Part shown: piece after piece, positions 25,375-46,538 of the stretch | How positions within the stretch are numbered: position 1 is the first letter of the stretch | How the letters are laid out: the number at the start of each line of letters is the position of its first letter | Assembly: GCA_947474995.1 (NCBI GenBank) | Contig: CANJNJ010000004.1 | Location: 1-64,000, forward strand | DNA length: 64,000 nt | Source: Opitutaceae bacterium | GTDB lineage: Bacteria; Verrucomicrobiota; Verrucomicrobiia; Opitutales; Opitutaceae | Direction: 5' to 3' | Notes under the pieces: model-generated | What the model saw: the letters and a program-made list of their open reading frames with translations, nothing else | The model's database searches: none | Told to the model about the DNA's origin: nothing | Translations under genes and position numbers: made by a program

Positions 25375-28300
25375 TCACGGAACTTCGTAGACTTCGATTA
25401 GGGCAACTCCCGTCGCCGAACCTGGCGCGACGACTTGGGCGTTGTAGCGACCGGGCGGCAAATTCATCAGCACGGCGGCGTCCTTGCTTCCACCATTGAG
25501 CGGGAACGCGCCGACTGACACCGCCGCTGAGTTCAAGAGCGAGGTATCGTTGCCCTGCTCCCAATTGTCGTTTTCCCGGATGACGACGCCGTCGTCCGCC
25601 CGTGTGACCCGCAGCAACGGATCGCTCAGCGTTCCGGGGAAGTTAAAGGGCGCGCCACCCAAGGTCGGACCAACCGCGCGGATCAACAGCTTTTTCGCCG
25701 TGTTACCGCTGACCGTAAAGCCGGCACTGAGCTGGTTTTGAGCGCCCGCTCCGACAAATCCACGGGTCGCGACATTGGTGAGCTTGTTCGCCGAGAACGG
25801 TTGCAGCGTGTCGAGGTCGTAGAGTTCGAGGAGGGCGACGCCGGTGGTATTGTTCACGCCCGTCACCTCTGCCACGTACGATCCCGGCGCAAGTTGAACG
25901 AGCAGCGCGGCATCACGACTTGACGCGGCCAATGGGAAGCCGCCGGCGACCGCCGACGCGTCGGCGAGGGCCGAGCCACCACCCCAATTGTCGTTGGTGA
26001 AGACGAGACCGCTGCCCGAGAGGCGCAACTGCGGATCCGCCAGGACACCCGTGACGCCAAACGCCCCGAGGGTTGGGCCGATCGCCCGCACCAACACCTG
26101 CTTCGGCGAATCCCCGGAAATCGTGAAGCCCGCCACCAGGATACGGTCACCCACGCCCACTTCCGCTCGCGTGGATAGATTGCGGAGGAATCCGTCGCTA
26201 AAGGAGACGCCCGAGGACACCGCGGCGATGAACGTTCCGCCCGGTCCGCCCGTCAGGGTCCCCGTCAGAAAGCCCGTGGCCGGATCGGCCCGGCCGGTGT
26301 AGCGGTTACCCGCCTGGGTCGTGATCGTGAAGTTACCCGTGGTTCCCAACGTGCCGTTGCCGGCGTCGCGGAATGTTCCGTCGGAGGTATAGATCGTAAT
26401 TGAACCATCCGGCCCGACGATGGCGACAAACAAGCTGTCGGCGCGACCGGAGAAGTTCCCGGAATAGAGCCCCGACGCCACGGTGCTCGCGCTGGAGAAG
26501 CTGAGCGGCCCAATGAAGGTGGCACGCCCGGCGTCCATCGAGCCCGATATGCCGGTATCGCTCGCGGTGCCCGAGATTTGGGCCTTGCCGACACTATCAA
26601 CCTGGATGAACCCACCGCCGGCATCGAGCGGCAGGCTCGGGAAGAAGTAAATCCGGTTCGCCCCCGTGGAGGTAAACCCGATGAACGTCGCACTCTTGCC
26701 GCGGACATTGATGGCGGAGAAGCGACCGGATTCTCCCGGGGCCGCGTACGAGCCGTTGTAAACAATGTCCGCTCCGCCGGCTCCGGGCAGCACCGCGAGC
26801 ACCGTGATGGCGGCGGAGGTGGTCGCGGCTCCCGAATTATCGATGGCAATTGCGGTCACGCGATAGATGCCTTCGGCGCCCGGCGTCCATTGGGCCGAAT
26901 ACGGCGCGGTGTTCTTGGGCGCGCCAACGGCGAGCCCGTTGGCAAAGAACTGCACACTCGCGATCGTGCCGTCGGCGTCAGTGGCCGTGGCCGTAAGGTT
27001 CGCGCCCGAGCCCACGCGGACGGCTGTGCCATTCGACGGCCCCGTCATCGTCACCGTCGGGGCACGATTGGAGACAACGGTGACGGTGATGGCCGTTGAG
27101 TTGGTCACGTTGCCCGAATCGTCGGTGGCTTGCGCCAGCACCGTGTAATTGCCGGCCGCGCTCGGCACCCAAGCCGCACTGTAGGGCAAGCCACTGGCCG
27201 TGCCGACCACATTGCCGTTGGCCATGAATCGCACGGAAGCGATCGTTCCGTCCGTATCCGTGGCAATCGCGGTGAGATTCACCACGCTGCCGCCATTGAC
27301 GAGCGTCCCGTTGGGCGGACTGGTGAGTGAAACCGCCGGAGCATTATTACCTCTGACGGTAATGCTGATTGCCGCCGCACTCGAGGAGGAGAGACCGGCG
27401 CTATCCGTCGCGATCGCCAGGAAGCTGTAGGTGCCGGGAGCGTTGGGCGTGAACTGCGCAGAATACGGCGAGGTGATATCCGTGCCGACGCCGACGCCAT
27501 TGACGAAAAACTGCATCTGCGCGGTCGGCCCGTTGCCGCCACTGGAAGTCGCCGCAATCGGGATCAAATTACCCACGCTGTATAATGTCGTGGCGATCGG
27601 GTTGGTTATCGTCACCGCGGGTGCCGCCGAGCCAGTGATGGCCACGACAATCGGCGTGCTCGTGGTAACATTTCCGACATTGTCCGTGGCGACCGCGGTC
27701 AGGCTGAACGTGCCGGCCAAGGTTGGCCGCCAACTGACATTGTAAGGGGCGCTGGTGGCCGCACCAAGAGAAAGACCGTTGGTAAAGAATTGGACACTGA
27801 CAATCGCGCCATCGGCATCATTGGCCGTCGCGGAAATTAGAACTTGGTTACCAAGACTGTAACTGCCCGCCGCCGGACTGGTCAGGGCCACGGTCGGCGG
27901 AGCGTTGGCGCCAATCGTCACCGTGACGGGCGCGCTGGTGGAAACATTGCCGCTGTTATCGGTAGCCTGCGCGGTAAGCACGTAATTGCCCACCGATCCC
28001 GGCGACCAAGTGGCCGTATACGGAGAAACCGTGTCAATTGCGCCCTGGGGAACGCCGTTAACAAAGAACTGAACCTGCGTAATCGAACCGTCGGAGTCCG
28101 CGGCATTTGCCGTCAGGTTGAGGTTGGCACCGACCGTGTAAGAACTGCCGTTGGTCGGATTTGTGACGGAGACGGTCGGGGCCGCGGAGGCACCCACCGT
28201 CACGGTGACGGGAGCAGAATCCGTGATGTTTCCGAGGTTGTCCGTGGCGCGGGCGCCAAGCGTATAGGTGCCGAGCGCGTTCGGCGCCCACGCGGCCGCA

Positions 28301-31300
28301 TAGGGGAAGGCGCTATCCGTCGAAAGCGCGGCGCCATTGAGGAAAAATTGCACGCTAGTAATGAAGCCCGTCGACGACGTGGCGGCGGCGTTGATCGTCA
28401 CCGGCGCATTGACCCCCAGCGTGGTGGAATTTGCCGGTGCGCTGATGGCGACACTTGGTGCCGTACCGCCGCTCACCGTAATTCGGACGGTTGCGCTCGT
28501 CGTAATATTTCCACCATCGTCGATCGCCACCGCTTTCAACACGTAATTGCCCGTCGCGCTCGGCGTGAAGATGACATTATACGGGTAAACCGTATCAACC
28601 CCGAGCGAAGTGTTGTTGGCAAAGAATTCGACGCTCCTGATCGTGCCATCGGAATCGAACGCGGACGCGGCGATCAACGTCGCGCTGCCGACCGGCAGGG
28701 AAGCTCCGGCGGCCGGAGAGACCAGCGACACGGAGGGCGCACCAAGGCTTACGCCCGCAACCGTGACGTCAACCGCCGCACTCGTTGTCTGATTGCCGAG
28801 TGAATCCGTGGCAATCGCCGTGAGCGAAACGGCACCGGTACCGGCTGGCGTCCAGGCAAAATTATACGGGAAGGTGCTATCCGTCCCCAAGGACACGCCG
28901 TTCGCCAAGAACTCAACCTTGGCGATGGTGCCGTTGGCGGCGTTGGCGCTCGCGACAATCGTCTGCGTCACGCCAACGTCGAGCGAGGAACCTACCGCCG
29001 GACTCGCGATACTGACCGTCGGCACGTTGCCGCCGGTGACCGTGACGGTGACCGGCGCAGCCTGGGTTTGAATCCCGAAATTATCGGTGGCCGTCGCACT
29101 CAAGGCGAAAGTCCCAATCGTGGCGGGAGTCCACGGGGCCGTGAACGGGAAGGTCGCGTCCGTCGAGAGCGAGACGCCGTTCACGAAGAATTCCACTTTA
29201 ACGACGGTACCGGTACTCGAAGACGCCGTCGCCGCGATCAGCTGCGGCGTGTTCACGCCGAGCGTCGCACCCGCCGCGGGACCCGTGATGGTCAAAGTCG
29301 GCGGAGGTGTCGTTACGGTGAAGGAAATAGGTGTCGCATTTCCCTGCGTGCCGTTGCTGTCGATCGCGACGGCCGTAATCGTGGCCGTTCCGCCAGCCAC
29401 CGGAGTCCAAGTGACACTGAAAGGCGCTGTCACATCGGTGCCGAGCGAAACGCCGTTGGCGAAAAACTGCACGCTCGTGACGGTCGCCGGCGCGACCGGG
29501 ACCGCCGTCGCCGATACTGTTTGAATAGTCCCGACAGGACCCGCACCACCCGCGGCAGGCGACGTAATCGTGACGCTCGGTCCAACGGCCGCCACCACAT
29601 TAAACGCCACCGCAGTGGACGTGGTCGAATTGCCGAGGGAATCAATCGCAATTGCCGTAACCGTATAGGCGCCGAGAGCCGCCGGCGTATACGCTTGGGT
29701 GTAGGGGAAGGTCGTGTCCGTGCCGATCGAGGCGCCATTCACGATGAATTGCACGCTCGTGATCGTCGCTGGGGCTGTCGCTGTCGCCGTGGCACTGAAG
29801 GTTTGAGCAGAGTTTACCGTAATGCTTCCGCCCGCAACCGGATTGGTAACCGCGACGACCGGCGGAGTTCCTGCCGTGACCGTGACGCTCACGCCACCTG
29901 AACTTCCCGTAAGCGATCCACTGTCAGTCGCGACCGCCGTTAGCGTATAGGGGCCAGCGGTTGTCGGCGTCCAGTTAATCGAATAGGGCGAGGTCGCATC
30001 AGTACCAATCGAGACGCCGTTGGCAAAAAACTGGACACTGGAAATCGTCGCCGGGAACGAGCCAACGGCCGTGGCCGAAATTGGCACCGCGATATTTACG
30101 GGGAAGCTACTGGCCGCAGCCGGAGCGGTAATATTCACCACCGGCACGCCTGCGGCTGCAACATTGACTATGACCGCCGCACTCGTCGTTTGATTACCAC
30201 CGTTGTCCGTGGCGATGGCCGTAATCTGATAGCCGTTGCCGGGGGTCGACGTGGCAACCGGCGTCCAGAACACCGTATAAGGGAAGGTCGTAACGGTTCC
30301 GAGCGAGATACCATTGGCAAAGAACTGCACACTCGCGATCGTGCCGTCTGGATCGTTGGCACTTGCGGTGATCGTAACGACCGGGGCCGGCACCGTTCCA
30401 ATCTGAACAGATGTTCCGGTGGTGGGCGTAACAATGCTAACCGACGGCGAAGTCGGGCTTACGGCGTTTCCGGTAACGGACACCGGCGCACTCGTCGCCC
30501 GATTGCCGAGGGTATCGATGGCGACCGCCGTCAGCGAATAGGTGCCTGTGACGATCGGGGTCCAACTCGCCGTAAAGGGGAAAGTCGTGTCCGTGCTCAG
30601 AGCGACGCCGTTGACGAAGAACTGCACACTCTGAATAACCGCACCTACTTGGGTCGCGGCCGCGGTCGCGATGATGTTCTGCGGGAAGCCGACGTTGACG
30701 GACCCCGGGGACGTGATGCTCACCGTCGGGGCCGAGCCGGCCGCCACCGTGTAAACCACCGGCGCCGACGTGACTGTCGTGCCCACACTGTTGGTCACGA
30801 CCGCGAAAATCGAATACGAGCCCGTTGACGTGGGCGTCCACGGCACCGAGTAGGGGAAGGACGTCACCGTGCCGAGAGACACATTGTTCGCGAAGAACTG
30901 GACCCTCAGCACCGAGGCGTTGGTCACGGCCACGTTGGCGGTGACCGTCTGCGCCACATTTACCGGCAGGCTGCTGGCGTTGGACGGACTTGCGATCACC
31001 ACGGTCGGGACCGGCGCGCTGATAACCGTGACGGAAATCGGAGCCGATGTGGTCTGAATGCCGGACGCATCCGTGACCACCGCGGTGAAGACGTAGGTGT
31101 CAGGCGCGGCCGGCGTCCACGATCCCGTGAAGAACGGCGCGGAGCCCTGGCCTCCGGGGGCGGTGGAGCCACCACCAATGGCCACTCCGTTCACGTAGAA
31201 TTGCACGCTAGTGATAAAGCTCGATCCCAGTCCGACCGTCGCACCCATCGCAATCTGCTGACCGACCACATAGGTCGCACCGCTGTTGGGCGAGGACAGT

Positions 31301-34300
31301 GCCACGGTGGGCGCGCCACCGGCACCGACTGCCGCCACGGTTATGCTCGAGGACGAACTCGTGGCCTGATTACCGGCCGAGTCGATGGCGATTGCCGTAA
31401 TCGCGTAGGTGCCGATGGCCACCGGCGTCCACGGCGCGGTATATGGGAACGTCGTATCGGTCCCGAGAGAGACGCCGTTGGCGAAGAATTGGACACTCGC
31501 GATCGTGGCGGTACCGACCGCGTTGGCCGTAGCGATAATCGTTTGCGCCGAATTCACCGCGATCGTCGAGCCGTTGGCAGGCGCCACAACCGTGACCGTC
31601 GGCGCATTACCAGCCGTGACCGTAACCGTGTTGGTCGCAGAGGTTGTGGTCGCACCCAAGTTGTCAGTCGCAACCGCCGTAATCGCGTAGCTGCCTGCCA
31701 CCGTCGGTGTCCAGCTGACCGAATACGGTGAGGTCGTGTCCGTCCCCAGCGACACACCATTCGCGAAGAACTGCACACTGGCGACCGTGCCATCGGCATC
31801 GCCCGCCGTGGCCGTAACGACATTGACCGACCCGACGCCCACGCTGGCGAGATTGGCCGGGGCCGTGACCGTAACTGTCGGCAGCGCATTGGCACCGACC
31901 GTTATGGTAACCGCGGCGCTCACGGTTTGATTGCCCGAGGTGTCGGTCGCGAGTGCCGTCAGGGAATAGGTCCCGTTGGCCACCGGCGTCCATGTTCCCG
32001 TATACGGGAAGGTCGTGTCGGTCCCAAGGGAGACACCATTCGCAAAGAACTGCACACTGGCGATGGTCCCGACGACCGAGGTCGCTGTGGCGGCCAGATT
32101 ATTGGTCGACGCAACGGCCACGTTGGTTCCCGTTACCGGCGCGGTGATACTGACGGACGGGGCATTGCCGCCGCTAGCGGTAATTGAGATCGCTGCCGAG
32201 GTGGTCTGAGCCCCAAGGTTGTCCGTGGCCACAGCCGTCAAAGTATAGGCGCCACCGATCGTCGGCGTAAATGATGCGGAGTACGGAGAGGTCGTATCGG
32301 GCGCACCGAGCGCGGTTCCATTGACGAAGAACTGAACATTCGACACCGTGCCGTCCGAGTCCGTAGCCGTAGCCGTAATCGCGGTGGCCACCCCTACCCC
32401 AACGGTGGCCAGATTCGCCGGTGCCGTGATGCTGATCGCCGGAGCGACGTTCGCCGCAACCGTGACCGAAATGACCGCACTTGTCGTTTGATTGCCGATG
32501 GTGTCGGTCGCAACGGCGGTGAGCGAGTACGCACCGGTCGCGGGAGGATTCCACACGACTTGGTAGGGGAATGTCGTCAGATTACCAAGGGACACGCCGT
32601 TGGCAAAGAACTGCACACTGGCAATCGTCGCCGGTGCGGTAGCTGCCGCATTCGCCACGATCGTCGGCGTCGTGCCGAACGAGATGGTCGCGAGATTGGC
32701 CGGACTCGTGATGCTCACCGTCGGCGCCGTGCCGGCCGTGACCGTGACACCAACGGCGGTCGACGTGGTTATGTTACCGGCTGTGTCCGTGGCCACGGCT
32801 GTCAGCGAGAACGCCCCCAGCGACACCGGACTCCAGGTCGCAGTGTAGGGGAACGTGTTATCGGTGCCGAGCGATACGCCGTTGGCGAAGAACTGCACGC
32901 TGGCGATCGTGGCCGGCGAAACGGCGGTGGCGGTGGCCGAAATGGTCTGCGTCGTATTGACCGGGATGACCGCCGCCGACGCGGGCGACGTGATGCTCAC
33001 CGCTGGAGCCGTCCCCGCGCTGACGGTAATGCTTACCGGCGCCGAGGTGGTTTGAATTCCAGTCGTATCCGTGGCGACCGCGGTCAAAGTATAACTGCCG
33101 GTCGTGACCGGCGTCCACGGCGCGGTGAAAGGGAAGGTATTGTCGGTGCCGAGGGAAACCCCGTTGGCGAAGAACTGCACACTCGCAATGGTCGCCGGGG
33201 CGACCGCCGTGGCCGTCGCCGTGATCGTGTTGACCGAATTTACCGCGATCGTCGACAGCGTCGCCGGCGCAGTGATCGCGACCGTCGGGGCGGCATTGGC
33301 CGACACCGTCACCGTCACGGTCGAACTCGTCGCTTGATTCCCGGCGGTATCCGCCGCCACGGCCGTAAGGACAAAGGTGCCGGTGGCCGTCGGCGTGAAG
33401 GTGGCCGAATAGGGAAATGTCGTGTCGGTGCCCAGCGAAACGCCGTTGGCAAAGAACTGTACGCTCGCGATGGTCGCGCCGGCCGCATTCGCGCTGGCCG
33501 TGGCCGTGACCGTGTTGGCAGAACCAACCGCGATTGTCGCAAGATTGCTCGGGGATCCGATGCTGACTGTCGGCGCCGTGCCACCCGCAGCGGTTACCGT
33601 TACAACGGCCGATGTCGTCGTGGCGCCGAGATTATCCGTGGCGACCGCCGATATTGCGTAGGATCCGGTGGCGGTCGGGGTGAGCGTGGCCGCATAGGGC
33701 GAGGTGGTGTCGGTGCCCAACGACGTGGCCGTGCCGCCATTGAAGCTGACGAAGAATTGCACACTCGCCACGCTGCCGTCGGCATCGGTCGCGGTCGCGT
33801 TGACCGCAGCCACAGAACCGACCGTGAGGACAGCTGCGGGCGCCGGGAGGGTGACGCTAACCACCGGCGCGGCATTCGTCACGGTAACCGCCACAGCCGA
33901 TGACGTCGTGGTCGTACCGAGATTGTCCGTGGCCACGGCAGTCAGGCTGACCGGGCCAGACGTCGTCGGTGTCCACAAGACGCTAAATGGCGACGTCAGA
34001 TCCGTGCCGATCGAAACGCCGTTGGCAAAGAACTGCACTTGCGCCACCGTGCCGTTGCTGTCGGAAGCCGTGGCCGAAACCATGGTCGCACTACCCGTCG
34101 GAACGCTCGCGCTCGCCGCTGGCGCGGTGATGCTGACGCTTGGCGGATCGTTTACCGTGACGGTAATGGTCGTGGTCGCTTGATTACCCGCCGTATCGGT
34201 GGCGGTGGCGGTGAGTGTATAAGCACCAATCGCCGTAGGGCTAAAGGTCGCCGAATAGGGCACCGTCGTGTCGGTGCCGAGCGAAACATTGTTGGCGAAG

Positions 34301-37300
34301 AACTGGACGTTCGCGATGGTCGCCCCGGCGGCGTTGGCGATCGCATTGGCCGTAAACGCATTGGTTGTTCCAACGACAATGACCGCGGCGTTGGACGGCG
34401 CGGTGATGCTGACGGTCGGCGTCGTGCCGCCGGTGGCGTTCACCGTCAGGCTGACGACGGTGCTGAGCGTTTGATTGCCAGCCGTATCGGTGGCGAGCGC
34501 CGTTAGCGAATAAGTACCCGTGGCCGTCGGCGTAAAGGTTGCGGCATAAGGGAAGGTGGTGTCAGTGCCGAGCGAGACGCCATTGGCAAAGAATTGCACG
34601 CTGGCGATGGTCGCCGTCCCGGCGGCGGTCGCCGTGACGGTCAGGCTGACCGGGGTGCTCACCGCGCTGGTGGAACCCGTGGTCGGGGATGTAATCGCAA
34701 CGCCCGTGGGCGAATTTCCACCGGAAACGGTCACAACAAACGCCGCAGAAGTGACAGCCGCGCCGAGGTTATCGGTCGCAATGGCGGTGAGTGAATAGCT
34801 GCCAGCGATAACGGGCGTCCATGACACCGTGTAGGGTGAGGCCGTCACCGTGCCGAGTGCGACAGGTGTCGCGCCGGCGTTGCTGACAAAGAACTGCACG
34901 CTTGCGATCGTACCGTCAGAATCGGCCGGCGTCGCGGTAACCACATTAGCCACCCCCACACCCGAGGCCGCGGTGGCGGAAACCGTCACGGTTGGCTGAG
35001 CATTGGTCGCGACGGCCACGGTCGTCGCGGCCGTCAAGGTCTGGTTTCCCGCCGTGTCCGTCGCGAGGGCCGTGATCGCGTAGGAACCCGTCGCGACCGG
35101 AGCAAAGGTCACGGCATACGGATAGGTCGTATCGGCACCCAGTGACACGCCATTGGCGAAGAACTGCACACTGGCAATCGTGGCGCCGGAAGCGACGGCC
35201 GCGGCCGTGGCCGTGATATTGGCGTTGGAATTTACCGCCACGCTCGAAGGGACTGAGAGCGATACCGTCGGAGCGTTACCACCAGTGACGGTAACAACCC
35301 GGTTGGCAGACGTTGTCGTGGCACCGAGATTATCGGTCGCGACTGCCGTTAACGTGTACGTGTCGGCGATGGTTGGCGTCCAAGTAATGGAGGCGCTCGT
35401 GAAAGGAGCCGTCGTGACGGTGCCGATTGAAACCGGCGTCGTTGCCCCGGTGCGACTGACAAAGAACTGCACACTCGTAATTGTCCCGTCCGTATCGCTG
35501 GCATTGGCGGTGACCGCCGTCGCGGCCCCCACTCCGATGTTCGCCGCGGGCGGACTCGCAAGCGGCACCGTAATACTGACGCTGGGCGCAACGTTCGTGT
35601 TAACGGTAATGTTGACGGTCGAACTCGTGGCCTGATTGCCCACCGTATCGATCGCCAGCGCCGAAATCGCGTAGCCGCCAGTCGCCGCCGGCGTAAACGT
35701 CGTGGAATAGGGAAACGTGGTATCGGTCCCCAGGGAGACGCCATTCGAAAAGAACTGCACGCTGGCGATCGTGGCACCGGTGACATTCGACGTGGCGGTG
35801 GCGGTCACCGGCACCGTCGAACCAAAGGCCACCGTGGACGCGGTCAGCGGGGCCGTGACAGAGACCGTCGGCACCGCCCCGGCGCTCACCGTCACATTGA
35901 CCGCGGCGGACAGCGTCTGGTTGCCAGCGTTGTCCGTCGCAATAGCCCGAAGGACGTAGGCACCGGTGGCCGCAGGATTGAAGGTCGTTCCGTAGGGGAA
36001 CGACGTATCCGTCGCAATGAGCGACCCGTTGGCAAAGAACTGCACGCTTTGGATCGTGCCATCGGAGTCGGACGCGCTCGCGTCGATCGTGATCGCGGTG
36101 CCGATCGCTGTGGTACTCGCATTGGTTGGACTCGTGAGGCTGACCGTCGGCGCGGTGTTGGACGTGACGGTAATTTGGCCCAGCGACGAAACCGTCGAGA
36201 TCGTACCGGTCCGGAGCACCGCATGAACATCGTACGTGCCGGAGCGCGTGAGCGAGCGAATGAATTGATAGGGCGAACCGGCGACGGTGGTGGCCTGCAC
36301 GCCGTTCAGATAGAAATCGATTTTCGGCGGCGTGTCGGTGCCGAAGTTGTGCGTCGCGTTGAAAACAATATTTTCTCCGACCGAATAGGTCGCGCCGTTA
36401 ACCGGGCTGATCAGCGTGACCGTCCCCGCCGACGCGGTGGTCGAGGCTTTACCGTTGATGAACAGCGGCACGGTGAAGACCGAATTGCCGAGCGAATCCG
36501 TGACGCGGGCGGTGATCACCACCTGACCCAGTGTGCTCAGCGTGGTCGTGGTATAGAACGGCGACGCCGCATCGGTGGCGATGTTGGTGCCGTTAACGAA
36601 GAACTGCACACTCGTAATGGTGCCGGCCTGAGACACCCCCGTGGCCGCTAGAATCAGGGTGGAGCCAACGCGCACATCGACCGCCGCAGCCGGATCAATG
36701 GTCGTCGTGGAACCACTATCGACCGCCGGGTTGTTGAACGTCAGCGCCACCGTCGGCGCTACGCCGGAGGCCGCTGCCACCGTCACCGCCGAGGCGGCTG
36801 ACGTTACCCGATTGCCGGCATTGTCCGTCACGACCGCCGTGAACGAATGTGCGCCGGTCGTCGTGGGCGTATAGGTCGTGAAATATGGCGCCGTTGCCTT
36901 GCTGCCCACGACGAGCGTGCCGTCCAGGAATTCGACGAGCGAAACCGTGCCATCAGGATCGCTGGCGATCGCCGAAAGGACGACGGGCTGGTTCACGGTA
37001 AAGGTCGTGCCTGTGGGCGGCGTAACGACGGAAATACTTGGCAGGCCGGGAGTCGGCGAACTGACCGTCACGGTCACCGTCGCGCTCGTCGTCTGGTTCC
37101 CGGAGGTATCCGTGGCCAACGCGGTCAGGGCATAGGAACCGGTGGCGGTCGGGGTCCAGGAGGCCGCATAGGGGAAGGCGGTGTCGGCACCGAGCGCGAC
37201 TCCGTTGGCAAAGAACTGCACGGTGGCGATGGGAGCGGAACCTGATGCGACCGCCGTGACTGTCTGCGCGGTATTCACCGGAACGGCGGTGCTTGAGCCC

Positions 37301-40300
37301 GGCCCGGTGATGGTAACAGTCGGCGCGGTACCAACATTAACCGAGACGGCCGCGGACGTGGCGGACGTACCAATATTGTTCGTGACGGTGGCCGTCAGCG
37401 AAACCGCGCCGGCCGTCGTCGGCGTCCACGATAAACTAAATGGCGAAGTCGTGCTGGTGCCAATCAGCGTCGCGCCGGCAAAATATTGCACGCTTGAGAC
37501 GGAACCGACCGGGCTGGCTGCGCTGACCGTCAGCGTTGTCGCCACGTTGATCGGCAGTGTGGCGGCCGCCGCTGGCGCCGTGATTGACACGGTGGGCGCG
37601 ACCGAGCCCGAGACGGTCAGGGCGACGGAGGAACTCGTGGTCTGATTGCCCGCGGCATCGGTCGCGAGCGCGGTCAGCAAATAAGAACCGGCGACCGTCG
37701 GTGTCCACGACGTCGTATACGGAAAGGTCGATACGGTGTTAATCGCCACGCCATTCACCTTGAATTGAACACTGGCGACCGTGCTCGCGGCCGAAGTCGC
37801 GGTGGCAAGGATCGTGGTCGGAGCGTTGACCGTGATGGTACTCGCACCCGGCGATGTGATCGAAACCACGGGACCCGTGCCGACCGTAACCGCAACCGCG
37901 GCCGACGTGGTTTGGGTACCGAGGGAGTTTGTCACGGTCGCGGTCAGCGACACGGCCCCGGCGGTCGCGGGCGTCCAAGCCAGGCTGAAGGGCGACGTCG
38001 TGCTCGTGCCGATGGGGGTGCCACCGTCAAGGTATTGGACGCTCGTGATCGAACCGACCGGAGTCGACGTGGTGGCGGTGAGCGTGGTCGCCACGTTGAT
38101 CGGCACGGTGGAACCCGCCGTGGGCGACGAAATGGCCACGGTCGGCGCGAGAGAAGTCGTAACCGTAATAGCCACTCCCGCACTCGTGCTAATGTTACCG
38201 GCCAGATCGGTGGCGCGGGCGGTCAGCGAATAGGAACCAGCCGACGTCGGCGTCCAACTTACGCTGTAGGGGAAGGTACTGGCCGTGCCAATGGAGACGC
38301 TGTTGGCGAAAAACTGCACGGTGGCGATGTTACCCGCCGCCGACGTCGCGGTGGCCAGGATCGTGTTCGTGGTATTCACGGCGATATTGCCGGCCGACGG
38401 CGCGGTAATCGCGACCACCGGTCCGGTACCGACGGTGACGGCCACGCCCGCGGACGTGGCGGTGGTGCCGATCGGGTCGGTCACCGTCGCGGTCAGCGTG
38501 ACGGCACCGGCCGAGGTGGGCGTCCACGCGAGACTAAAGGGCGACGTCGTACTTGTGCCGATCAGCGTGGCGCCGGCAAAAAACTGCACGCTCGTGGGGG
38601 TACCGAGGGGCGACGCCGCGCTCACCGTAATCGTCGTGGTCGCATTGAGCGCCACGGCCGCGCTGGCGGCCGGGGAAGTAATTGAAATCGTCGGCGTGAC
38701 CGCCGTGGCGCTCACCGTCACGCTATTGGCCGAGCTGGTCGTGGCATTGCCAACATTGTCGGTCGCGACAGCGGTGAGTGAATAGGTGCCAGGCGTCGCG
38801 GGCGTCCAGGAGGCGGTATAAGGATACACGCTATCCGTGCCGATCGAGGTGCCATTGGCAAAGAACTGCACGCTCGCCACGACTCCGGTGGCGGACGATG
38901 CCGTGGCCAGAACGGTCTGGGTGGCGTTGACACTGACGGTGGCGGCGTTCGCCGGCGAGGTGATCGACACACTCGGCGCGGTGCCGGCGGGAACGGAGAC
39001 GGCGGTGGAGGTCGCCGTCACGCTCGCACTGTCGGTCGCAATCGCAGTCAGCGAATAGGTGCCGGACGAGGTCGGCGTCCAGGAAGCGGTGTAGGGAGCC
39101 GTCGTGTCAGTACCGATCGAAACGCCGTTGGCGAAAAATTGGACACTACTGATCGTCGCACCGGGGGTCGAAGCGGAGGCGGAAGCACTGATCGTGGTCA
39201 GGGAGTTCACCGGCACCAGCGTTCCGCCAACGGGACCGGTGATGGAAACACTCGGCGAGGCGTTGATGGTGACAGAAACGCTGCTGGACGCACCGACGTT
39301 GCCGAAGCTGTCGGTCCCGAGCGCGGTCAACGTATAGGTGCCGACGGCGGTCGGTGTCCACGTGGTCGAGTACGGAAACACCGTGCTGGAGCCCACGCTG
39401 GCGCCGTTGACGTAGAACCGCACCGTCGAGATGACGCCGATGGTGGTGGTCGCACTGGCGCCGATGGTAACGGGGGTGTTGACGAGCGAAGTGCTGCCGG
39501 TGCCGGGGCTCGTGATCGAAACCGTAGGCAGCGTGGCCGAACCTGGAAGCGCGTTGATCCGGCGGTCGATGAGAATGACGTCGCGCGCACTGTTGGCATC
39601 CGGCGACGTCAGATTTGTCGCGCCATGGACCAGGCCGTTGGAGCCTTCGGCATCCGAAGGCACCGCGATCCAGCGTCCGTCACCGCTGATCGCCGGGTAA
39701 ATGTCCGCCGCGGCCGTACTCTGCGAGGCGTTGGCGGCGAAAGTCTGGTAGCCAAACCGGCTGACGCTGGCAATCTTGGTGGAGATTGTGACGTCGAAGG
39801 AACCCGTCGCGTTGACATCACGATCGTGAATGTAGGTGTTGAGCGAGCTATTGCCGCTGCCCGTGCCAAGATATTGGCCATAGGTGTCGCCAGGTGCGAG
39901 ATCGCTGTCGAGCGAGACGAAGGCCACGTAGCGACCAGTCGAGCTAATGGCAGGGTTAAAACTGCCGAGCTTCGAACCCGTGACCGCGTTCGAGGTGGGA
40001 TCCGATCCCTGGGTCCCCGAGCTATCAACACTCACTCGCGTCGTGGTCGCAGCGGCTCGGTTGTAGACGAAGGCGTCCGACACGCCATTGGTGTCACTGG
40101 CCCCAATGAGGTTCGTCGCGTCGGACGCAAAGGCGACATAGCTGCCATCGGAACTGATCGACGGCTGGCGGCTCGGGCCACCCGCGGCTTGCACGCCCGC
40201 GACCCCAACGCTTACCCGAATGGTCGAACTACCGGCAAGGTTGCGCAGGAAAACGTCCCGGAGGCTGTTCGTGTCACCGGCGACTAGATCGGTCGCGTCG

Positions 40301-41820
40301 GACGCGAACGCGACATAGGTGCCATCGGAACTGATGACCGCCTGCAGGGATCCACCATTGCCACCGGCCGTGCCGGCGGAATTGAAGGAAACCAGCGTGG
40401 TGGTACTCAACGTGCGATCGCGGAGGTAAATCTGCACGACGCCCGTCGTGGCGCTCGCCGAAAGATTTGAGGCACTCGATTCAAACACGAGATAGCGCCC
40501 GTCCGAGCTGATCGACGGCCGGAAGGAAGCGCCGTTGGACTGCGTGCCGGCCGTCGCAATGCTCTCGCGCGAGATGTCGCCGTTCTGCGTGTCGACGACG
40601 AATATATCCGAAAAGCCGTTGGTATCGTTGAGCACGAGGTTCGTCGCCTCGGACGAAAACGCGACATAGCGGCCGGCCGCACTGATAACCGGCGTGTTTG
40701 ACGCACCAGTGGCGGCAACACCTTGCTGGGAGACATTGATCCGACGTATCGTCGACGTGTTATTATCGAACAGGAAGATGTCCCGCACGCTATTCGTGTC
40801 GCCGGAAATCAGGTTCGTCGCATCAGACGCGAACACCGTATAGCGCCCGTCGGATGAAACGGACGGATTGTCGCTGTAGGCGTTGGCGCTGGCCGAGCCG
40901 GTCGTGCTGACGAGATAGGCCGTGGGAAATGCCGTGGGTTGAAGCGCGAGGCGCGAACCCGCCAAATCTCCCCAAATATTGTTTCCGTTTACGGTCGTGT
41001 CGTTCTCGATCGTCTCCGTCACGGCGCCGAGGGAGTCGATTTTCGCCAGGACGTAATAGGAGCCGGAGTAGTTGCCGGGCAAGAGTTGGCTCCAGCTGAT
41101 CGTCTGGGTCGAACTGTCGGCGTTCTTCTTCGTGCTGACATCGTGAAACGTCAGCATGAAGTCGTCGGCATCGCCGAAGGTCGCGTTCTGCGACAGCACA
41201 ACCATGATGCGAAAATAACTCGCCCCCGTGCTTGGCACCCACGGCACATTGTAAGAGCCGTTGCTCGAGGTGTTGTTGCGATACGTCAACGACATCGGCA
41301 GCACGTCGCCGCCCTTGTAATTGGTGCCCGAGGTGTAGGTGATGCTCGTGATCTGGAGGTCCGGCGTGCCGGTGACGGTGAGGACCGTGCTCGAGGCGCT
41401 CAAGACTCCCCCCGCGATGGTGCCGGAACTGGGAGCGCTCATCGTCACGACCGCGCTGTAGTTGCCTGCCTCCGTCGTCTGCGTGGGCACGGTGAATGTA
41501 TAGTTCATCGTTCCACTGCCGCCGGCACCGGCGATCGCGCCGGCCGCGGTGGCCGTACCGCTGACCGTGAAGAAGTATGCCGTGGCGGTATTGGTAAACG
41601 TAACGGAGATGCTGGCCGTTCCACCGGAGGCAAAATCGTCCGCTGGAGTCGCGGCCCCTGAATTGGTCATGGTCACCGCCAGCGTGACACTTTGATTGGG
41701 CGCCGCGGACGCCGGCGAGGCCGCCACGCCCGTCGGCGTGAGAATGGGAGCAGCAACGGAGGTAGCCGCCAAACCGAGTGCGAACGCCGCACCGAATAGA
41801 AAACGCAGCCAAGGTTTCAT
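25375..41820 (-). CDS. Giant secreted protein with PD40-like propeller and about 45 tandem Ig-like (Big_7-type) repeats
   Basis: The protein is 5,481 residues from the ATG at 41818-41820, which has a good ribosome site (GAGGTG, 8 bp upstream) and a signal peptide (MKPWLRFLFGAAFALGLAAT ending SVAA). Order of parts: a CARDB-like N-terminal region to about residue 295; a region at about 300-755 with repeated SSDGRYxxFAS blades, like TolB/PD40 propellers; 45 Ig-like repeats by hand count at about 763-5005. Each repeat is close to 94 residues with a core VQFFANGVSLGTDTTFPY and a tail TAVATDxxGNxTTS. A unique 190-residue block follows, then two related C-terminal domains each holding LVRAIGPTLG or LIRAVGPTLG. 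No LPXTG, transmembrane tail or PEP-CTERM is visible. It follows pilQ by 50 bp. An adhesive or matrix role is inferred. Confidence 0.9.
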   Translation of the reverse strand: MKPWLRFLFGAAFALGLAATSVAAPILTPTGVAASPASAAPNQSVTLAVTMTNSGAATPADDFASGGTASISVTFTNTATAYFFTVSGTATAAGAIAGAGGSGTMNYTFTVPTQTTEAGNYSAVVTMSAPSSGTIAGGVLSASSTVLTVTGTPDLQITSITYTSGTNYKGGDVLPMSLTYRNNTSSNGSYNVPWVPSTGASYFRIMVVLSQNATFGDADDFMLTFHDVSTKKNADSSTQTISWSQLLPGNYSGSYYVLAKIDSLGAVTETIENDTTVNGNNIWGDLAGSRLALQPTAFPTAYLVSTTGSASANAYSDNPSVSSDGRYTVFASDATNLISGDTNSVRDIFLFDNNTSTIRRINVSQQGVAATGASNTPVISAAGRYVAFSSEATNLVLNDTNGFSDIFVVDTQNGDISRESIATAGTQSNGASFRPSISSDGRYLVFESSASNLSASATTGVVQIYLRDRTLSTTTLVSFNSAGTAGGNGGSLQAVISSDGTYVAFASDATDLVAGDTNSLRDVFLRNLAGSSTIRVSVGVAGVQAAGGPSRQPSISSDGSYVAFASDATNLIGASDTNGVSDAFVYNRAAATTTRVSVDSSGTQGSDPTSNAVTGSKLGSFNPAISSTGRYVAFVSLDSDLAPGDTYGQYLGTGSGNSSLNTYIHDRDVNATGSFDVTISTKIASVSRFGYQTFAANASQSTAAADIYPAISGDGRWIAVPSDAEGSNGLVHGATNLTSPDANSARDVILIDRRINALPGSATLPTVSITSPGTGSTSLVNTPVTIGASATTTIGVISTVRFYVNGASVGSSTVFPYSTTWTPTAVGTYTLTALGTDSFGNVGASSSVSVTINASPSVSITGPVGGTLVPVNSLTTISASASASTPGATISSVQFFANGVSIGTDTTAPYTASWTPTSSGTYSLTAIATDSASVTATSTAVSVPAGTAPSVSITSPANAATVSVNATQTVLATASSATGVVASVQFFANGTSIGTDSVYPYTASWTPATPGTYSLTAVATDNVGNATTSSANSVTVSATAVTPTISITSPAASAAVALNATTTITVSAASPLGTPTSVQFFAGATLIGTSTTSPFSLAWTPTSAGAVTLTATVTDPIGTTATSAGVAVTVGTGPVVAITAPSAGNIAVNTTNTILATATSAAGNIATVQFFANSVSIGTASTFPYSVSWTPTSAGSYSLTARATDLAGNISTSAGVAITVTTSLAPTVAISSPTAGSTVPINVATTLTATTSTPVGSITSVQYLDGGTPIGTSTTSPFSLAWTPATAGAVSLTATVTNSLGTQTTSAAVAVTVGTGPVVSITSPGASTITVNAPTTILATATSAASTVASVQFKVNGVAINTVSTFPYTTSWTPTVAGSYLLTALATDAAGNQTTSSSVALTVSGSVAPTVSITAPAAAATLPINVATTLTVSAASPVGSVSSVQYFAGATLIGTSTTSPFSLSWTPTTAGAVSLTATVTNNIGTSATSAAVSVNVGTAPTVTITGPGSSTAVPVNTAQTVTAVASGSAPIATVQFFANGVALGADTAFPYAASWTPTATGSYALTALATDTSGNQTTSATVTVTVSSPTPGLPSISVVTPPTGTTFTVNQPVVLSAIASDPDGTVSLVEFLDGTLVVGSKATAPYFTTYTPTTTGAHSFTAVVTDNAGNRVTSAASAVTVAAASGVAPTVALTFNNPAVDSGSTTTIDPAAAVDVRVGSTLILAATGVSQAGTITSVQFFVNGTNIATDAASPFYTTTTLSTLGQVVITARVTDSLGNSVFTVPLFINGKASTTASAGTVTLISPVNGATYSVGENIVFNATHNFGTDTPPKIDFYLNGVQATTVAGSPYQFIRSLTRSGTYDVHAVLRTGTISTVSSLGQITVTSNTAPTVSLTSPTNASTTAIGTAITIDASASDSDGTIQSVQFFANGSLIATDTSFPYGTTFNPAATGAYVLRAIATDNAGNQTLSAAVNVTVSAGAVPTVSVTAPLTASTVAFGSTVPVTATATSNVTGATIASVQFFSNGVSLGTDTTFPYSTTFTPAATGGYAISALAIDTVGNQATSSTVNITVNTNVAPSVSITVPLASPPAANIGVGAATAVTANASDTDGTITSVQFFVSRTGATTPVSIGTVTTAPFTSASITWTPTIADTYTLTAVATDNLGATTTSANRVVTVTGGNAPTVSLSVPSSVAVNSNANITATAAAVASGATIASVQFFANGVSLGADTTYPYAVTFAPVATGSYAITALATDTAGNQTLTAATTVAVATNAQPTVTVSATAASGVGVANVVTATPADSDGTIASVQFFVSNAGATPVALGTVTASPYTVSWTPVIAGSYSLTAIATDNLGAAVTSAAFVVTVSGGNSPTGVAITSPTTGSTSAVSTPVSLTVTATAAGTATIASVQFFANGVSLGTDTTFPYAATFTPTATGTYSLTALATDTAGNQTLSTVVSLTVNATGGTTPTVSITAPSNAAVIVVGTTNAFTANAIANAAGATIANVQFFANNVSLGTDTTVPYSATFSPTAIGAYTLTATATDTAGNQATTTITVTVNDPPSVSITAPAASASVPTGSATMVSATASDSNGTVAQVQFFANGVSIGTDLTSPFSVLWTPTTSGPVSLTAVATDNLGTTTTSSAVAVTVTNAAPVVSVTLPAPAAVLTVGSVAAVNATATDADGSVASVQFFVSFNGGTATSLGTDTTSPYAATLTPTATGSYAISAVATDNLGATTTSAVVTVTAAGGTAPTVSIGSPSNLATIAVGSANTVTATASANAAGATIASVQFFANGVSLGTDTTFPYSATFTPTATGTFVLTAVAADTAGNQATSSTVTVTVSANAAPTVAITAPATLSTIAVNSVNTITATATAVAPATIASVQFFANGVSLGTDNTFPFTAPWTPVTTGSYTLTAVATDTTGIQTTSAPVSITVSAGTAPAVSITSPASAAVIPVNTTQTISATATAVSPATIASVQFFANGVSLGTDNTFPYTATWSPVSLGAFSLTAVATDTAGNITTSTAVGVTVTAGTAPTVSITSPANLATISFGTTPTIVANAAATAPATIASVQFFANGVSLGNLTTFPYQVVWNPPATGAYSLTAVATDTIGNQTTSAVISVTVAANVAPAISITAPANLATVGVGVATAITATATDSDGTVSNVQFFVNGTALGAPDTTSPYSASFTPTIGGAYTLTAVATDNLGAQTTSAAISITASGGNAPSVSITAPVTGTNVAVASTNNLAATATSVVGTIASVQFFANGVSLGTDTTFPYTGTWTPVANGTYSLTALATDTSGNQTVSAAVTITVGANALPTVTVTAPANLASVGVGSVNVVTATAGDADGTVASVQFFANGVSLGTDTTSPYSVSWTPTVAGSYAITAVATDNLGATTTSATNTVTVTAGNAPTVTVVAPANGSTIAVNSAQTIIATANAVGTATIASVQFFANGVSLGTDTTFPYTAPWTPVAIGTYAITAIAIDSAGNQATSSSSSITVAAVGAGGAPTVALSSPNSGATYVVGQQIAMGATVGLGSSFITSVQFYVNGVAIGGGSTAPGGQGSAPFFTGSWTPAAPDTYVFTAVVTDASGIQTTSAPISVTVISAPVPTVVIASPSNASSLPVNVAQTVTANVAVTNASVLRVQFFANNVSLGTVTSFPYSVPWTPTSTGSYSIFAVVTNSVGTTVTSAPVVYTVAAGSAPTVSITSPGSVNVGFPQNIIATAAATQVGAVIQSVQFFVNGVALSTDTTFPFTASWTPIVTGTYSLTAVAIDTLGNRATSAPVSVTGNAVSPTSPSVSIVTPTTGTSVQIGTVPAPVVTITASANDPDGTIASVQFFANGISLGTVTTFPYTVFWTPVATSTPGNGYQITAIATDNGGNQTTSAAVIVNVAAAGVPVVNITAPAAASSFPVNIAVPISATAVGSFPATISSVQFFANGVSIGTDATSPYSINWTPTTAGPYTLTAVATDSGSLTGSSGGVSVTVTAGTPPVVAVTNPVAGGSITVNSAQTFSATATATAPATITSVQFIVNGASIGTDTTFPYTQAYTPAALGAYTVTAIAIDSLGNSTTSTAVAFNVVAAVGPSVTITSPAAGGAGPVGTIQTVSATAVPVAPATVTSVQFFANGVSLGTDVTAPFSVTWTPVAGGTATITAVAIDSNGTQGNATPISFTVTTPPPTLTITGPAAGATLGVNTPQLIAATASSSTGTVVKVEFFVNGVSLSTDATFPFTAPWTPATIGTFALSATATDNFGIQTQAAPVTVTVTGGNVPTVSIASPAVGSSLDVGVTQTIVASANAANGTIAKVEFLANGVSLGTDSTFPYNFAWTPAGTGAVSLTAIATDSLGNQTTSAAVDVTVAGVSLGAPSVSLVSPAAGASLPVGSATLIAASAFDSDGTIRSVEFFANNTSLGVDTVYPYNVIFTPSATGNYVLKAVAIDDGGNITTSATVRITVSGGTAPSVAISAPANSTTLGVNAPVTINAAATSSTGFITSVQFFLNGAALSTDSAFPYAAAWAPNALGTYTLGARATDNLGNITDSAPVTVTVGASAAPTVSVTNPTNGSSYTVGANLNLTANAADSDGSITQVQFFVNGVPQGAIDTVSPYTATWSPGSVGNYVLTAQATDNSGNVSTSAPVTVTIGANAPPTVALTSPAAGSYSLGNQVLISATANDADGAIVSVQFFTNGLSLGAATSAPYNVSWRPTLAGTFSLTAVATDNVGNVTTSTPIVVAITGSAAPAVTITNPIATTLYSVGNLIPIAATSSGGNGPTAQMQFFVNGVGVGTDITSPYSAQFTPNAPGTYSFLAIATDSAGLSSSSAAAISITVRGNNAPAVSLTSPPNGTLVNGGSVVNLTAIATDTDGTIASVRFMANGNVVGTASGLPYSAAWVPSAAGNYTVLAQATDDSGNVTNSTAITVTVVSNRAPTVTMTGPSNGTAVRVGSGANLTATATDADGTIASVQFFANGLAVGAPKNTAPYSAQWTPGAEGIYRVTAIAIDNSGAATTSAAITVLAVLPGAGGADIVYNGSYAAPGESGRFSAINVRGKSATFIGFTSTGANRIYFFPSLPLDAGGGFIQVDSVGKAQISGTASDTGISGSMDAGRATFIGPLSFSSASTVASGLYSGNFSGRADSLFVAIVGPDGSITIYTSDGTFRDAGNGTLGTTGNFTITTQAGNRYTGRADPATGFLTGTLTGGPGGTFIAAVSSGVSFSDGFLRNLSTRAEVGVGDRILVAGFTISGDSPKQVLVRAIGPTLGAFGVTGVLADPQLRLSGSGLVFTNDNWGGGSALADASAVAGGFPLAASSRDAALLVQLAPGSYVAEVTGVNNTTGVALLELYDLDTLQPFSANKLTNVATRGFVGAGAQNQLSAGFTVSGNTAKKLLIRAVGPTLGGAPFNFPGTLSDPLLRVTRADDGVVIRENDNWEQGNDTSLLNSAAVSVGAFPLNGGSKDAAVLMNLPPGRYNAQVVAPGSATGVALIEVYEVP
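26800..39530. repeat. Coding tandem array of about 45 Ig-domain units, roughly 280 bp each
   Basis: Each unit re-uses nearly the same DNA words, for example GCGAAGAACTGCACACT (reading plus) for the FFANG core and a GTATAGGGGAA-like segment for the FPY core. The blocks between about 31.4 and 35.8 kb look the most alike, while the units near 36.2-36.8 kb are divergent. The array can support recombination and is a site where short-read assembly may collapse or expand copies. Confidence 0.85.
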
Positions 41821-41870
41821 TTTGACACCTCGTGTTTGAAAGCGGGCAGGCAGAGTGGGCGAAGGAATGC

Positions 41871-43778
41871 TCATTTCTTCTCCTCAGGAATCAACTTGCG
41901 GAAGATTGAAGTCTTCGCGGGGCCTTTTTCGTTAGAATTTAACTCGCCGGGCTTCGCATCCGACGGGAGGAAGGGATTGGAACCGTCCCGGAACCCCGGA
42001 AGGTCTTCGCGCTTCATGTTCAGTTGCTTCACGCGACTCGAATCGAACACCTGTTCCACCGCCGCGCCCTCCGCACTGATCGTCTTGGCCGTGATGAAGA
42101 TAATCAGGTTGGTTTGCTCGATCCGCTTGCCTTCGGACCGAAAGAGCCGGCCGAGCAGTGGAATCGAGCCGAGCACCGGCACTTTGTTGTCGGCGTTACT
42201 CGACGAACTCGTGAGCAGCCCGCCGATACCCATCGTGAATCCGTCCTTCAGCGATACCTGCGTCAGGGCCTTCCGCGTGTCGATGATCGGGATGGCGTTG
42301 CCGTTAAACGTCACGCTGTTCAGCGACTGACTGACTTCCGGGCTGACCGTCAGCTTGATAAAACCCCGGGAGTTTACCTGCGGGGTTACTTTGAGAATCA
42401 CGCCGATCGGCTTGAAGTCGAAGCCGTTGACCTCGAGGTTGCCCGTCTGCTGGTTGTACTGATACCGGGGAATCGGACGTTCCTGACCGACGTTGATGGT
42501 CGCCTCGGTGTTGTTGAGGGTGACAATCGTAGGGTTGGAGACAATCTTGACGCTGTTCTGAGTCTGGAGCGCGCTTAGTACCAGCGCGAATTGATCCGCG
42601 GAAAACACGGCGGTCATGCCGCGGCTCGTGGCACCGGTGTTGGCGATTGTATTGAGCAGATTAAGCGCGTTGGTCGCCGTGTTCGTCACCGCGTTGTTCA
42701 CCCCATTTGTGATTGCGTTATTTGTGCCATTGGCGCCGGTCGTCGACGAGTTGGTGTCAAGGCTGCCGTTGTTGCTGGTGGTTGACGTGGAGGTAGGCGT
42801 GCCGTTGTTCGAGGTGACCGTACCGGTATTGGACGCACCATTGGACTGCGTGGTGCTTACCTGATTATTGGTTGTCGCCGTGGTTCCGTTGGTATTGGTC
42901 CCCGTGGTGCCGTTCGTGGTCGAACCGGTCGTGCCATTCGATCTGTTGCTGCCGTCGTTAGCCGTCTGGCCGCGGGTGCGGTCGAAGTTCCCGTTGAATG
43001 GCCCGGCGGCCACCTTGTAGTTCGCCAGCGAGGCCCAATTCACCCCGATGTTCTTCACGTCGCTGTCGGTGACTTCGACGAACTTGGTCTCGATCATGAC
43101 CTGGTCCGTCGCGCGATCGAGCGTCTCGATAATCGGTCGAATGCGGTTCATCCGCGACGGCCGCTCGGTGATGACGAGGGCATTGCTGCGGGCATCGACC
43201 ACAATTTTGCCGCCCGCGGCCGCATCCACCAGCGTCGTAATGGTGGGAAGAATATCCGCCGCCCGCGCGTAGTTGATCAGAAAAACTTCCGTCGAGACCG
43301 GTTCCTGCGTGAGGCTTTCGTTGCTGACGATTTTGATGATATTGCCGTCCTCGATGTAGGTGTAGTTCACGGGACTGAGCACGGTCTGGAAAATTTGCCG
43401 CCACGTGACATCGCGCAACTTGACCGTGGTCTTGCCCTGCAAGGCGTCGGGCATGGCTAGATTCAATTCAAAGAGATCGGCCACGTTGCGGAGAATGCTG
43501 CGAATATCCTCATCCGGGAAATCGACCGAAAGCGTGTCCCGACCCGCGGCATCCTTGCTCTTAATTGCCGCGGCAGCAGCCTTGGCCGCCTCATCACTCT
43601 TGGCGGCCGCATCGGCCGCCGCGGGCTTGTCGGCCAATCCAGCGTCACCCGGCACGGGCGTGGGGGAACCGGGCGCCACAACCGCGGGCGCCGCGGGCTG
43701 CTGCGCGAAGGCGCCCACGCCGGTGACGGCGGCTAGCATCGCGAAAACAACAATCGGCAGGGGCGAGCGAGTTCTCAT
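41871..43778 (-). CDS. pilQ: Type IV pilus secretin PilQ-like (GspD/PulD superfamily)
   Basis: The protein is 635 residues from the ATG at 43776-43778, preceded by GAGGTAAA; the frame runs further upstream but overlaps pilP. It has a signal peptide (MRTRSPLPIVVFAMLAAVTG...AFA), an Ala/Pro-rich linker, a secretin N-domain at about 83-150 (SVDFPDEDIRSILRNVADLF) and a second N-domain to about 265. An Asn/Thr/Gly-rich low-complexity insert follows at about 270-380. The secretin domain at about 385-590 contains VPVLGSIPLLGRLF and TNLIIFITAKTI. It forms the outer-membrane ring through which the pilus passes. AMIN domains of classic PilQ are not seen. Gene order pilM-N-O-P-Q supports the pilus rather than type II secretion assignment. 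Confidence 0.87.
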   Translation of the reverse strand: MRTRSPLPIVVFAMLAAVTGVGAFAQQPAAPAVVAPGSPTPVPGDAGLADKPAAADAAAKSDEAAKAAAAAIKSKDAAGRDTLSVDFPDEDIRSILRNVADLFELNLAMPDALQGKTTVKLRDVTWRQIFQTVLSPVNYTYIEDGNIIKIVSNESLTQEPVSTEVFLINYARAADILPTITTLVDAAAGGKIVVDARSNALVITERPSRMNRIRPIIETLDRATDQVMIETKFVEVTDSDVKNIGVNWASLANYKVAAGPFNGNFDRTRGQTANDGSNRSNGTTGSTTNGTTGTNTNGTTATTNNQVSTTQSNGASNTGTVTSNNGTPTSTSTTSNNGSLDTNSSTTGANGTNNAITNGVNNAVTNTATNALNLLNTIANTGATSRGMTAVFSADQFALVLSALQTQNSVKIVSNPTIVTLNNTEATINVGQERPIPRYQYNQQTGNLEVNGFDFKPIGVILKVTPQVNSRGFIKLTVSPEVSQSLNSVTFNGNAIPIIDTRKALTQVSLKDGFTMGIGGLLTSSSSNADNKVPVLGSIPLLGRLFRSEGKRIEQTNLIIFITAKTISAEGAAVEQVFDSSRVKQLNMKREDLPGFRDGSNPFLPSDAKPGELNSNEKGPAKTSIFRKLIPEEKK

Positions 43779-45514: not shown

Positions 45515-46538
45515 GGACGACGTTGTAATGGGCCATCAGGGCAAAGAGACCAAACCATCGCACTTCCTGTGCGTTCTTGGCCAGGGTGTCAGGCAACGTG
45601 ACGTGGCGGGATTGCAGCCACGGAACGGGATTTAGTTTGAGGCTGGTAATGCCGAGGGACGCCGCGAACGCGGCATCGAGCCAAGCGAGCTTCGGCGACA
45701 GCTGCGTGGTCAGGACCTGACCAACGGACTGCCCGGTCTGAACCTCATAAAACCCGATCGAGGACTGAAGCTCCTTGAGCAATTTCTTGATCAAAAGCGG
45801 ACCCATCCCCGTGAAGTCGAAGGTATTGGAATAAAACAGTTTTCGTGCTGACTCCTCATCCTTCAGGCCCAGTTCTTTCTGGACGATTGGTACCATGGCG
45901 TCGAGTCCCTGCGGGATCGGGCGCGAGGCCTCCACTCCATTCGCCGTCACGATAAACGAATGCGTGGAGTCGGCCCCGATTTCGAGCACCAGCGTTGGAG
46001 TCTTGGATTTGGCATGAGCGAGGCAGTCCACCACTCCCCCCAGCGTCGAAACCGTCCCCAATTCGAGCCGCTCCGGATAAATTCCGTTTTCGAGCAATGC
46101 GTTCTGGGCCGCATTCACCTCTTCCGTCAGCATGCCGCAAAAGAGCACGTCTTTCTGCACCGCCTTGGCCACGTCGAAGTCGGTACCCTCGGTCGAGTTC
46201 AGAATCGCGATGGTGTACTTGTCCTGTTCGATGCGAAACTGCTGGGAACAGACTTCGGCAAAGTACCCGGGTTCTTTAACCCGCTTGAGCTCGAGCGAGT
46301 GCCGTCGCACCAGTCGCTTTGCGGGATAGGTGCCGACAGTCGCATGCAAATAACCGCTCGGGCTCTTCTTCGGCTGAATCTGGTTAATCGCCTCCTCCAG
46401 CGCCGCGGGGTCATTGGGCGGGCACTCACGCATATCCTCGATGGTGAACGGCCCCACGGGCGCGGAGGTCCGGGCCAGCATGACGGCATAGTCGTTCAGC
46501 TCGACGAAGAATCCTTTGGCTTTCTGGGAGAAAAACAT
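45486..46538 (-). CDS. pilM: PilM-like cytoplasmic ATPase-fold protein
   Basis: This 350-residue protein has the actin-like PilM pattern: a beta-strand start KGFFVELNDYAVMLARTS, the phosphate-2-type TLVLEIGADSTHSFIV near residue 190, and ELQSSIGFYEVQTGQSVGQV in the second half. The GADSTH stretch replaces the usual G-A/D-x-x-T-x nucleotide loop closely. PilM sits at the cytoplasmic face of the pilus machine bound to PilN. It is the first gene of a minus-strand operon pilM-N-O-P-Q plus the giant Ig-repeat gene. The upstream gap is AT-rich and probably holds the promoter. Confidence 0.8.
   Translation of the reverse strand: MFFSQKAKGFFVELNDYAVMLARTSAPVGPFTIEDMRECPPNDPAALEEAINQIQPKKSPSGYLHATVGTYPAKRLVRRHSLELKRVKEPGYFAEVCSQQFRIEQDKYTIAILNSTEGTDFDVAKAVQKDVLFCGMLTEEVNAAQNALLENGIYPERLELGTVSTLGGVVDCLAHAKSKTPTLVLEIGADSTHSFIVTANGVEASRPIPQGLDAMVPIVQKELGLKDEESARKLFYSNTFDFTGMGPLLIKKLLKELQSSIGFYEVQTGQSVGQVLTTQLSPKLAWLDAAFAASLGITSLKLNPVPWLQSRHVTLPDTLAKNAQEVRWFGLFALMAHYNVVHAVPAEEKK

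Follow-up and report, generated by a model that had tools for sequence, protein, structure and literature searches.

The pilMNOPQ operon of an Opitutaceae bacterium was found to be followed directly by a gene for a giant secreted Ig-repeat protein, and, as read from gene order and sequence, such giants have a real and recurring link to secretins. The giants are probably tied functionally to the secretin machines, serving at the cell surface as fibres or adhesins presented alongside the pilus. The source genome is a MAG of the Opitutaceae (Verrucomicrobiota), a family from soil and freshwater. The window is the whole stretch of 64,000 nucleotides that was analysed, and coordinates refer to it unless another contig is named.

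The locus had been described as six co-directional genes with overlaps or with gaps of 50 bp or less. Six such genes were present on the minus strand, from 25375 to 46538. The product of pilM (46538–45486, minus strand, as are all the genes of the operon; 350 aa) matched TIGR01175 at an E value of 1.5e-11, under the family cut-off. Its orthologue preceded pilNOPQ in most of the genus relatives, with 63–83% identity (41–43% in G014 and G021). The pilN-like gene (45514–44894; 206 aa), overlapping pilM by 29 bp, was assigned from its position and conserved synteny, and sequence family searches gave no significant family match for its product. The pilO/GspM-like gene (44897–44340; 185 aa; 4-bp overlap) matched NF040576 (GspM) with an E value of 2.9e-5, and T2SSM_b was matched in five of nine aligned members (best E value 0.0012), which is a weak GspM/T2SSM_b signal. 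The pilP-like gene (44343–43780; 187 aa; 4-bp overlap) was likewise placed by position and conserved synteny, and its product gave no family match.

The listed ORF of pilQ, the type IV pilus secretin gene, opens at TTG 43898. A likelier start is ATG 43778, which has the RBS GAGGT and lies 1 bp past the pilP stop, giving a gene of 43778–41871 and a product of 635 aa. This product contained the Secretin (PF00263, E value 2.2e-45), Secretin_N and STN domains, and scored 252 bits against TIGR02515, just below the cut-off of 284. It thus had a secretin domain with N0/STN and N1, a place downstream of pilMNOP, and conserved synteny. Attempts to identify PilN, PilO and PilP from sequence or solved structures failed, PilO alone giving a weak signal. 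PilM and PilQ are therefore identified by sequence, and the other three mainly by position.

The conserved neighbourhood of the operon was uvrD, pilMNOPQ, a slot for the giant gene, rce1 on the opposite strand, a polyprenyl synthase gene and a gene for an ECF-type sigma factor. Nearly all of the related pilQ loci were in Opitutaceae/Opitutae MAGs of the Verrucomicrobiota. In the window, a fragment of an IS1634-family transposase (E value 6.8e-11) lay between pilM and uvrD at 46817–47335 (minus), with perhaps another part at 47351–48010 (minus). Because uvrD precedes pilM by a few hundred bases in relatives, an IS may have inserted into the promoter region of the pil operon in this genome. An isolated prepilin-like protein with an N_methyl motif was encoded at 56178–56789 (plus), about 10 kb from pilM, and an RNase P RNA gene (58489–58924, minus) was found not far from it.

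The ORF of the giant (25375–41874, minus; 5,499 codons) opens at 41874, where it overlaps the pilQ stop as ATGA. The first start with both an RBS and a signal peptide was ATG 41820, 50 bp past pilQ, and from this likely start the protein is 5,481 aa long (25375–41820). The RBS, GAGGTG (41826–41831), was read in the sequence, and the same motif stood at the same distance ahead of many orthologues. A Sec signal peptide (41749–41820; ORF residues 19–42), composed of K/R, a hydrophobic segment and then A-A-P, could be aligned across orthologues.

Behind the signal peptide came a head (39565–41748) of two beta-sandwich domains and a propeller. The propeller matched PD40 in Pfam and, in an AlphaFold model of the head (mean pLDDT 75), gave TolB as the best Foldseek matches (E value 2e-14), in keeping with the propeller-like head originally predicted. 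The stalk (26800–39528; giant residues 783–5025) was counted by an iterative HMM profile. It gave exactly 45 Ig-like domains (hits with E < 1e-20; Big_7/PF17957 by Pfam) spaced at about 94 aa, where about 45 had been claimed. Two small beta-barrels (26203–26787) followed in the model (pLDDT 88), resembling the fHbp/TbpB barrel with a Z score of 10.6 over 91 residues. The paired C-terminal beta-sandwich domains of the prediction were also present, as a tandem pair at 25378–26187 that aligned in 23 orthologues. Their nearest folds were PPC/collagen-binding (Z score 8.6), and from the model the pair is tentatively PPC-like.

An assembly artefact, or a tandem expansion at the DNA level, was rejected. 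Near-identical DNA tandem arrays were absent, there was no in-frame stop, and the family recurred in many assemblies, with complete lengths of 1,056–6,384 aa.

At the junction between pilQ and the giant gene in the window, a promoter-like site was looked for and none was seen, and the only terminator-like site was on the other strand. Among the related loci, the gap between the pilQ stop and the start of the signal peptide had a median of 44 bp (80% within 22–62 bp; n = 48), often with GAGGTG. As far as sequence can indicate, the giant gene and pilQ are likely co-transcribed.

The slot behind pilQ was surveyed in 80 loci. Seven that ended within or just after pilQ, or had a broken pilQ ORF, were left out, leaving 73 informative Opitutaceae loci. 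In 51 of the 73, the slot between pilQ and rce1/polyprenyl synthase held a gene for a large secreted protein. This was an Ig giant with a PD40 propeller in 27 and, in 19, an Ig protein that was shorter but shared its C-terminus (some of them cut by contig ends and typed from the N-terminus). In five it was a giant of about 2,100–2,400 aa with an RCC1 propeller (Pfam gave the RCC1 match in two). The slot was empty in the other 22, and rce1/polyprenyl synthase followed pilQ directly in many Opitutaceae as well as in G033, of an outlying family of the order. Since pilQ has no giant behind it in about 30% of the Opitutaceae surveyed, the pilus does not need the giant.

Within the window's genus, the slot was occupied in 21 of 21 informative genomes, namely 20 relatives (including G038 and G039) and the window itself. 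This count took only genomes with pilQ and its downstream side on one contig, and the set overlaps the 80 loci. Mapped on a tree of 76 PilQ sequences, the slot switched among its four states 13 times, and presence or absence changed seven times.

The heads of the occupants were a TolB-like propeller, an RCC1 propeller or a GSGYTSAPTVTISGGG repeat, and most occupants carried Ig domains, in numbers ranging from a few to over 45. The parts of the giants appeared to be modular, because the GSGYTSAPTVTISGGG repeat head stood before the propeller in some giants, and a second full or partial head was found within one ORF in G003, G023 and G039. Among the slot occupants, neither a common N-terminal sequence nor a single shared C-terminal module was seen, the RCC1 types ending differently; no secretin-recognition signal was therefore visible. 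In G032, of another family of the order, three consecutive giants of 2,194, 2,616 and 2,929 aa stood behind pilQ (L054, L073), the first two with RCC1-like N-termini.

The PD40 head was searched for in 27 genomes of the genus. It was present in 13, directly behind pilQ in 12 of them, and in the thirteenth (G011) it was split by a contig break, consistent with the same order. A search of 22 further genomes, in which the slot was empty or held an RCC1 giant, gave only two remote heads, in proteins of 4,602 aa (G056) and 1,752 aa (G058). Both were directly behind an Amuc_1098-type secretin (at +81 and +63 bp, respectively). All 14 head copies with readable context were thus directly behind a secretin, and none in the 27 genus and 22 other genomes was shown to have moved away from one. 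The finding that had been named beforehand as refuting the link, a giant gene placed elsewhere in most relatives, was thus looked for and not obtained: the slot was occupied throughout the informative genus genomes, and their propeller head occurred nowhere else.

The window genome encodes four secretins. One of them, encoded on contig C151, is part of an operon with homology to Amuc_1101–1098 (MUL2) of Akkermansia. In the related loci, secretins of the Amuc_1098 type were only 27–28% identical to PilQ. The C151 secretin scored 428 bits against NF042912, with a threshold of 750, and is by sequence a homologue of Amuc_1098 but not an equivalog. It was followed after 25 bp by a gene for another secreted Ig-repeat protein, so that this operon (locus L185, 4943–11727, on C151 of G000, the window genome), with its Amuc_1101/1100/1098-like genes, also ended in an Ig giant.

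In the genus, an Ig giant followed the second operon in all 17 cases with readable downstream DNA, and the complete proteins were 2,082–3,189 aa long with the same paired C-terminus. An Ig giant was likewise placed in G026, of another family, and a 1,358-aa protein with the same paired C-terminus stood behind the Amuc_1098-type secretin in G083, of another genus of the family. Such a protein was absent from this position in G098 (same family) and in most other orders. In G017 the second operon was present in two copies (L200 and L201), and both copies had an Ig protein of their own. A phylum-wide rule was rejected, as mostly other genes, for example dephospho-CoA-kinase-like ones, follow the Amuc_1098-type secretin outside the Opitutaceae. 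A possible exception there was a 1,856-aa ORF at +143 in G104. Behind the T2SS-like secretin on contig C47 of the window genome, no comparable Ig-giant gene was found.

The original prediction, that the giant is a pilus- or secretin-linked adhesin, was supported for the secretin link by the occupied slot in the genus, the specificity of the head and the Ig giant of the second operon; the adhesin role and the exit through the secretin are what we infer. The adjacency was kept through many changes of occupant and was repeated behind a distant secretin; neither inertia nor chance readily accounts for this, and we therefore interpreted the giants as probably tied in function to the secretins. We give about even odds to a reading in which the giant serves the pilMNOPQ machine as its dedicated partner at the surface, an adhesive fibre linked to the secretin.

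It had been claimed that no type I secretion genes lie near the giant, and no TolC-type match was found on the window's contig (C4), about 11 TolC-like proteins being encoded elsewhere in the genome. The genome also contains a GspD/E/F set with pseudopilins, T2SS-like, on C47, and, elsewhere, PilB/PilC/PilT-like genes, pilins and pseudopilin clusters (C109 and C47). The paired C-terminal module of the giant matched 46 genomic places, almost all of them distant from any secretin, and was covered by no Pfam family in the scans. This module, with TbpB/fHbp-like barrels and PPC-like sandwiches, may serve for sorting to the surface or for anchoring, as a domain specific to the lineage.

Because the module is spread over so many places and the slot occupants have no export signal in common, a general export route is conceivable. 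The giant might then only be co-regulated with the pilus genes, and leave the cell by a T2SS-like or other route used by all proteins with the paired module. The spread of the module, the GspD/E/F set with its pseudopilins and the lack of a visible common signal all favour such co-regulation. However, it leaves unexplained a propeller head found only behind secretins, and also the Ig giants at the ends of two distantly related secretin operons, although co-regulation could account for part of this. We consider this explanation rather unlikely. Passage of the giant through the secretin is itself suggested by analogy with TcpF (PMC9565799) and InvL (PMC9245377), and is weakened by the same observations, since no common export signal was seen in the occupants and the C-terminal module is carried by dozens of unrelated proteins.

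The giant could instead be a structural part of the pilus or secretin apparatus, such as a scaffold or a periplasm-spanning or cell-wall-bound collar, rather than cargo or an adhesin. The shared operon layout and the strong secretin specificity would fit such a part, and the modelled barrels and PPC-like domains could attach to the envelope. Yet the occupant is missing in about 30% of the pilQ loci, and the roughly sixfold variation in length and the exchange of heads better fit an exposed, variable surface protein, which makes a structural role improbable. It is very improbable that the pil operon ends in a neutral hot spot, merely tolerating insertion of large surface-protein genes with no functional coupling. 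The site can indeed be empty, with rce1/polyprenyl synthase next to pilQ. But the occupants are on the same strand, closely spaced, equipped with signal peptides and related in architecture; the same pattern recurs behind the second secretin, and the heads were not found elsewhere.

The closest parallels among known systems are secreted factors encoded in pilus operons, PilY1, and Ig adhesins exported through a secretin. The RTX/Bap-type giants (LapA, SiiE and BapA) have thousands of residues of tandem Ig-like domains, and InvL, an Ig adhesin, is much smaller than the giant. RTX/Bap-type giants come with type I secretion genes and RTX tails, whereas neither was seen with the giant here; a type I adhesin of this kind was rejected, with no RTX match in the last 1,666 residues. 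A type Ve intimin/invasin was also rejected, as the N-terminus consists of a signal peptide, beta-sandwiches and a propeller and has no outer-membrane beta-barrel. InvL, a T2SS substrate (PMC9245377), is like the giant an Ig adhesin, with surface display dependent on a secretin system, but it is a lipoprotein of the intimin-invasin family in Acinetobacter with different domains.

TcpF of V. cholerae is a secreted protein encoded in a pilus operon and has been proposed to leave the cell together with the pilus by way of the secretin (PMC9565799). The giant resembles TcpF and CofJ (ETEC) in being secreted and encoded in a pilus operon, as judged from gene order, spacing and signal peptide. Unlike these colonisation factors, which are small soluble proteins secreted by type IVb pili, it is a giant fibre of Ig domains, and its gene follows a PilMNOPQ-type operon. 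A further mark of TcpF/CofJ-like factors is that their secretion requires the pilus secretin and binding to a minor pilin. PilY1, the tip adhesin of type IVa pili, is a pilus-linked surface protein with a beta-propeller, part of the tip complex (PMC7541494), and the giant shares with it a beta-propeller and linkage to pilus genes. However, PilY1 has its own C-terminal PF05567 propeller, acts as a partner of minor pilins and is encoded with them, whereas the propeller of the giants, TolB-like/PD40 or RCC1, sits at the N-terminus, and its gene lies behind a secretin. The giant was rejected as a PilY1, its head matching PD40 and not PF05567, and the pseudopilin clusters lying on other contigs. 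A PF05567 search of the 27 genus genomes gave no match, and none was obtained in the control genomes either.

The Akkermansia pilus locus (Amuc_1098–1102/MUL2) is homologous to the second secretin operon of the window genome, but among the Verrucomicrobiota sampled from beyond the Opitutales, including Akkermansia-type loci, that secretin had no Ig giant behind it. MUL2 has been linked to glycan attachment (PMC13174399), and the Akkermansia pilus locus is implicated in attachment to mucin or other glycans.

As an adhesive fibre, the giant would be transcribed together with pilQ and exported by Sec, and would then pass through, or be tethered at, the secretin or pilus. The propeller would be the ligand-binding head and the Ig chain its stalk, very roughly 45 × 4 nm, or about 0.18 micrometre, and the fibre could serve in adhesion to particles or glycans. 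Its mode of action would resemble that of TcpF and CofJ and of the propeller adhesin PilY1, scaled up.

No description of a link between secretins and Ig giants was found in the literature searched, a scope that excluded preprints and most subscription journals. Tentatively, the Opitutaceae may have an undescribed class of secretin-dedicated giant fibres, in which PilQ and the Amuc_1098-like secretin would each export or anchor their own Ig-stalk protein, with heads swapped like cassettes in a fixed slot. This bears on the path by which giant repeat adhesins traverse the outer membrane when type I and autotransporter genes are lacking, and on what decorates the pili of Verrucomicrobiota. With a slot behind two secretins, exchangeable heads and a natural series of presence and absence, the matter is directly testable in tractable Opitutaceae.
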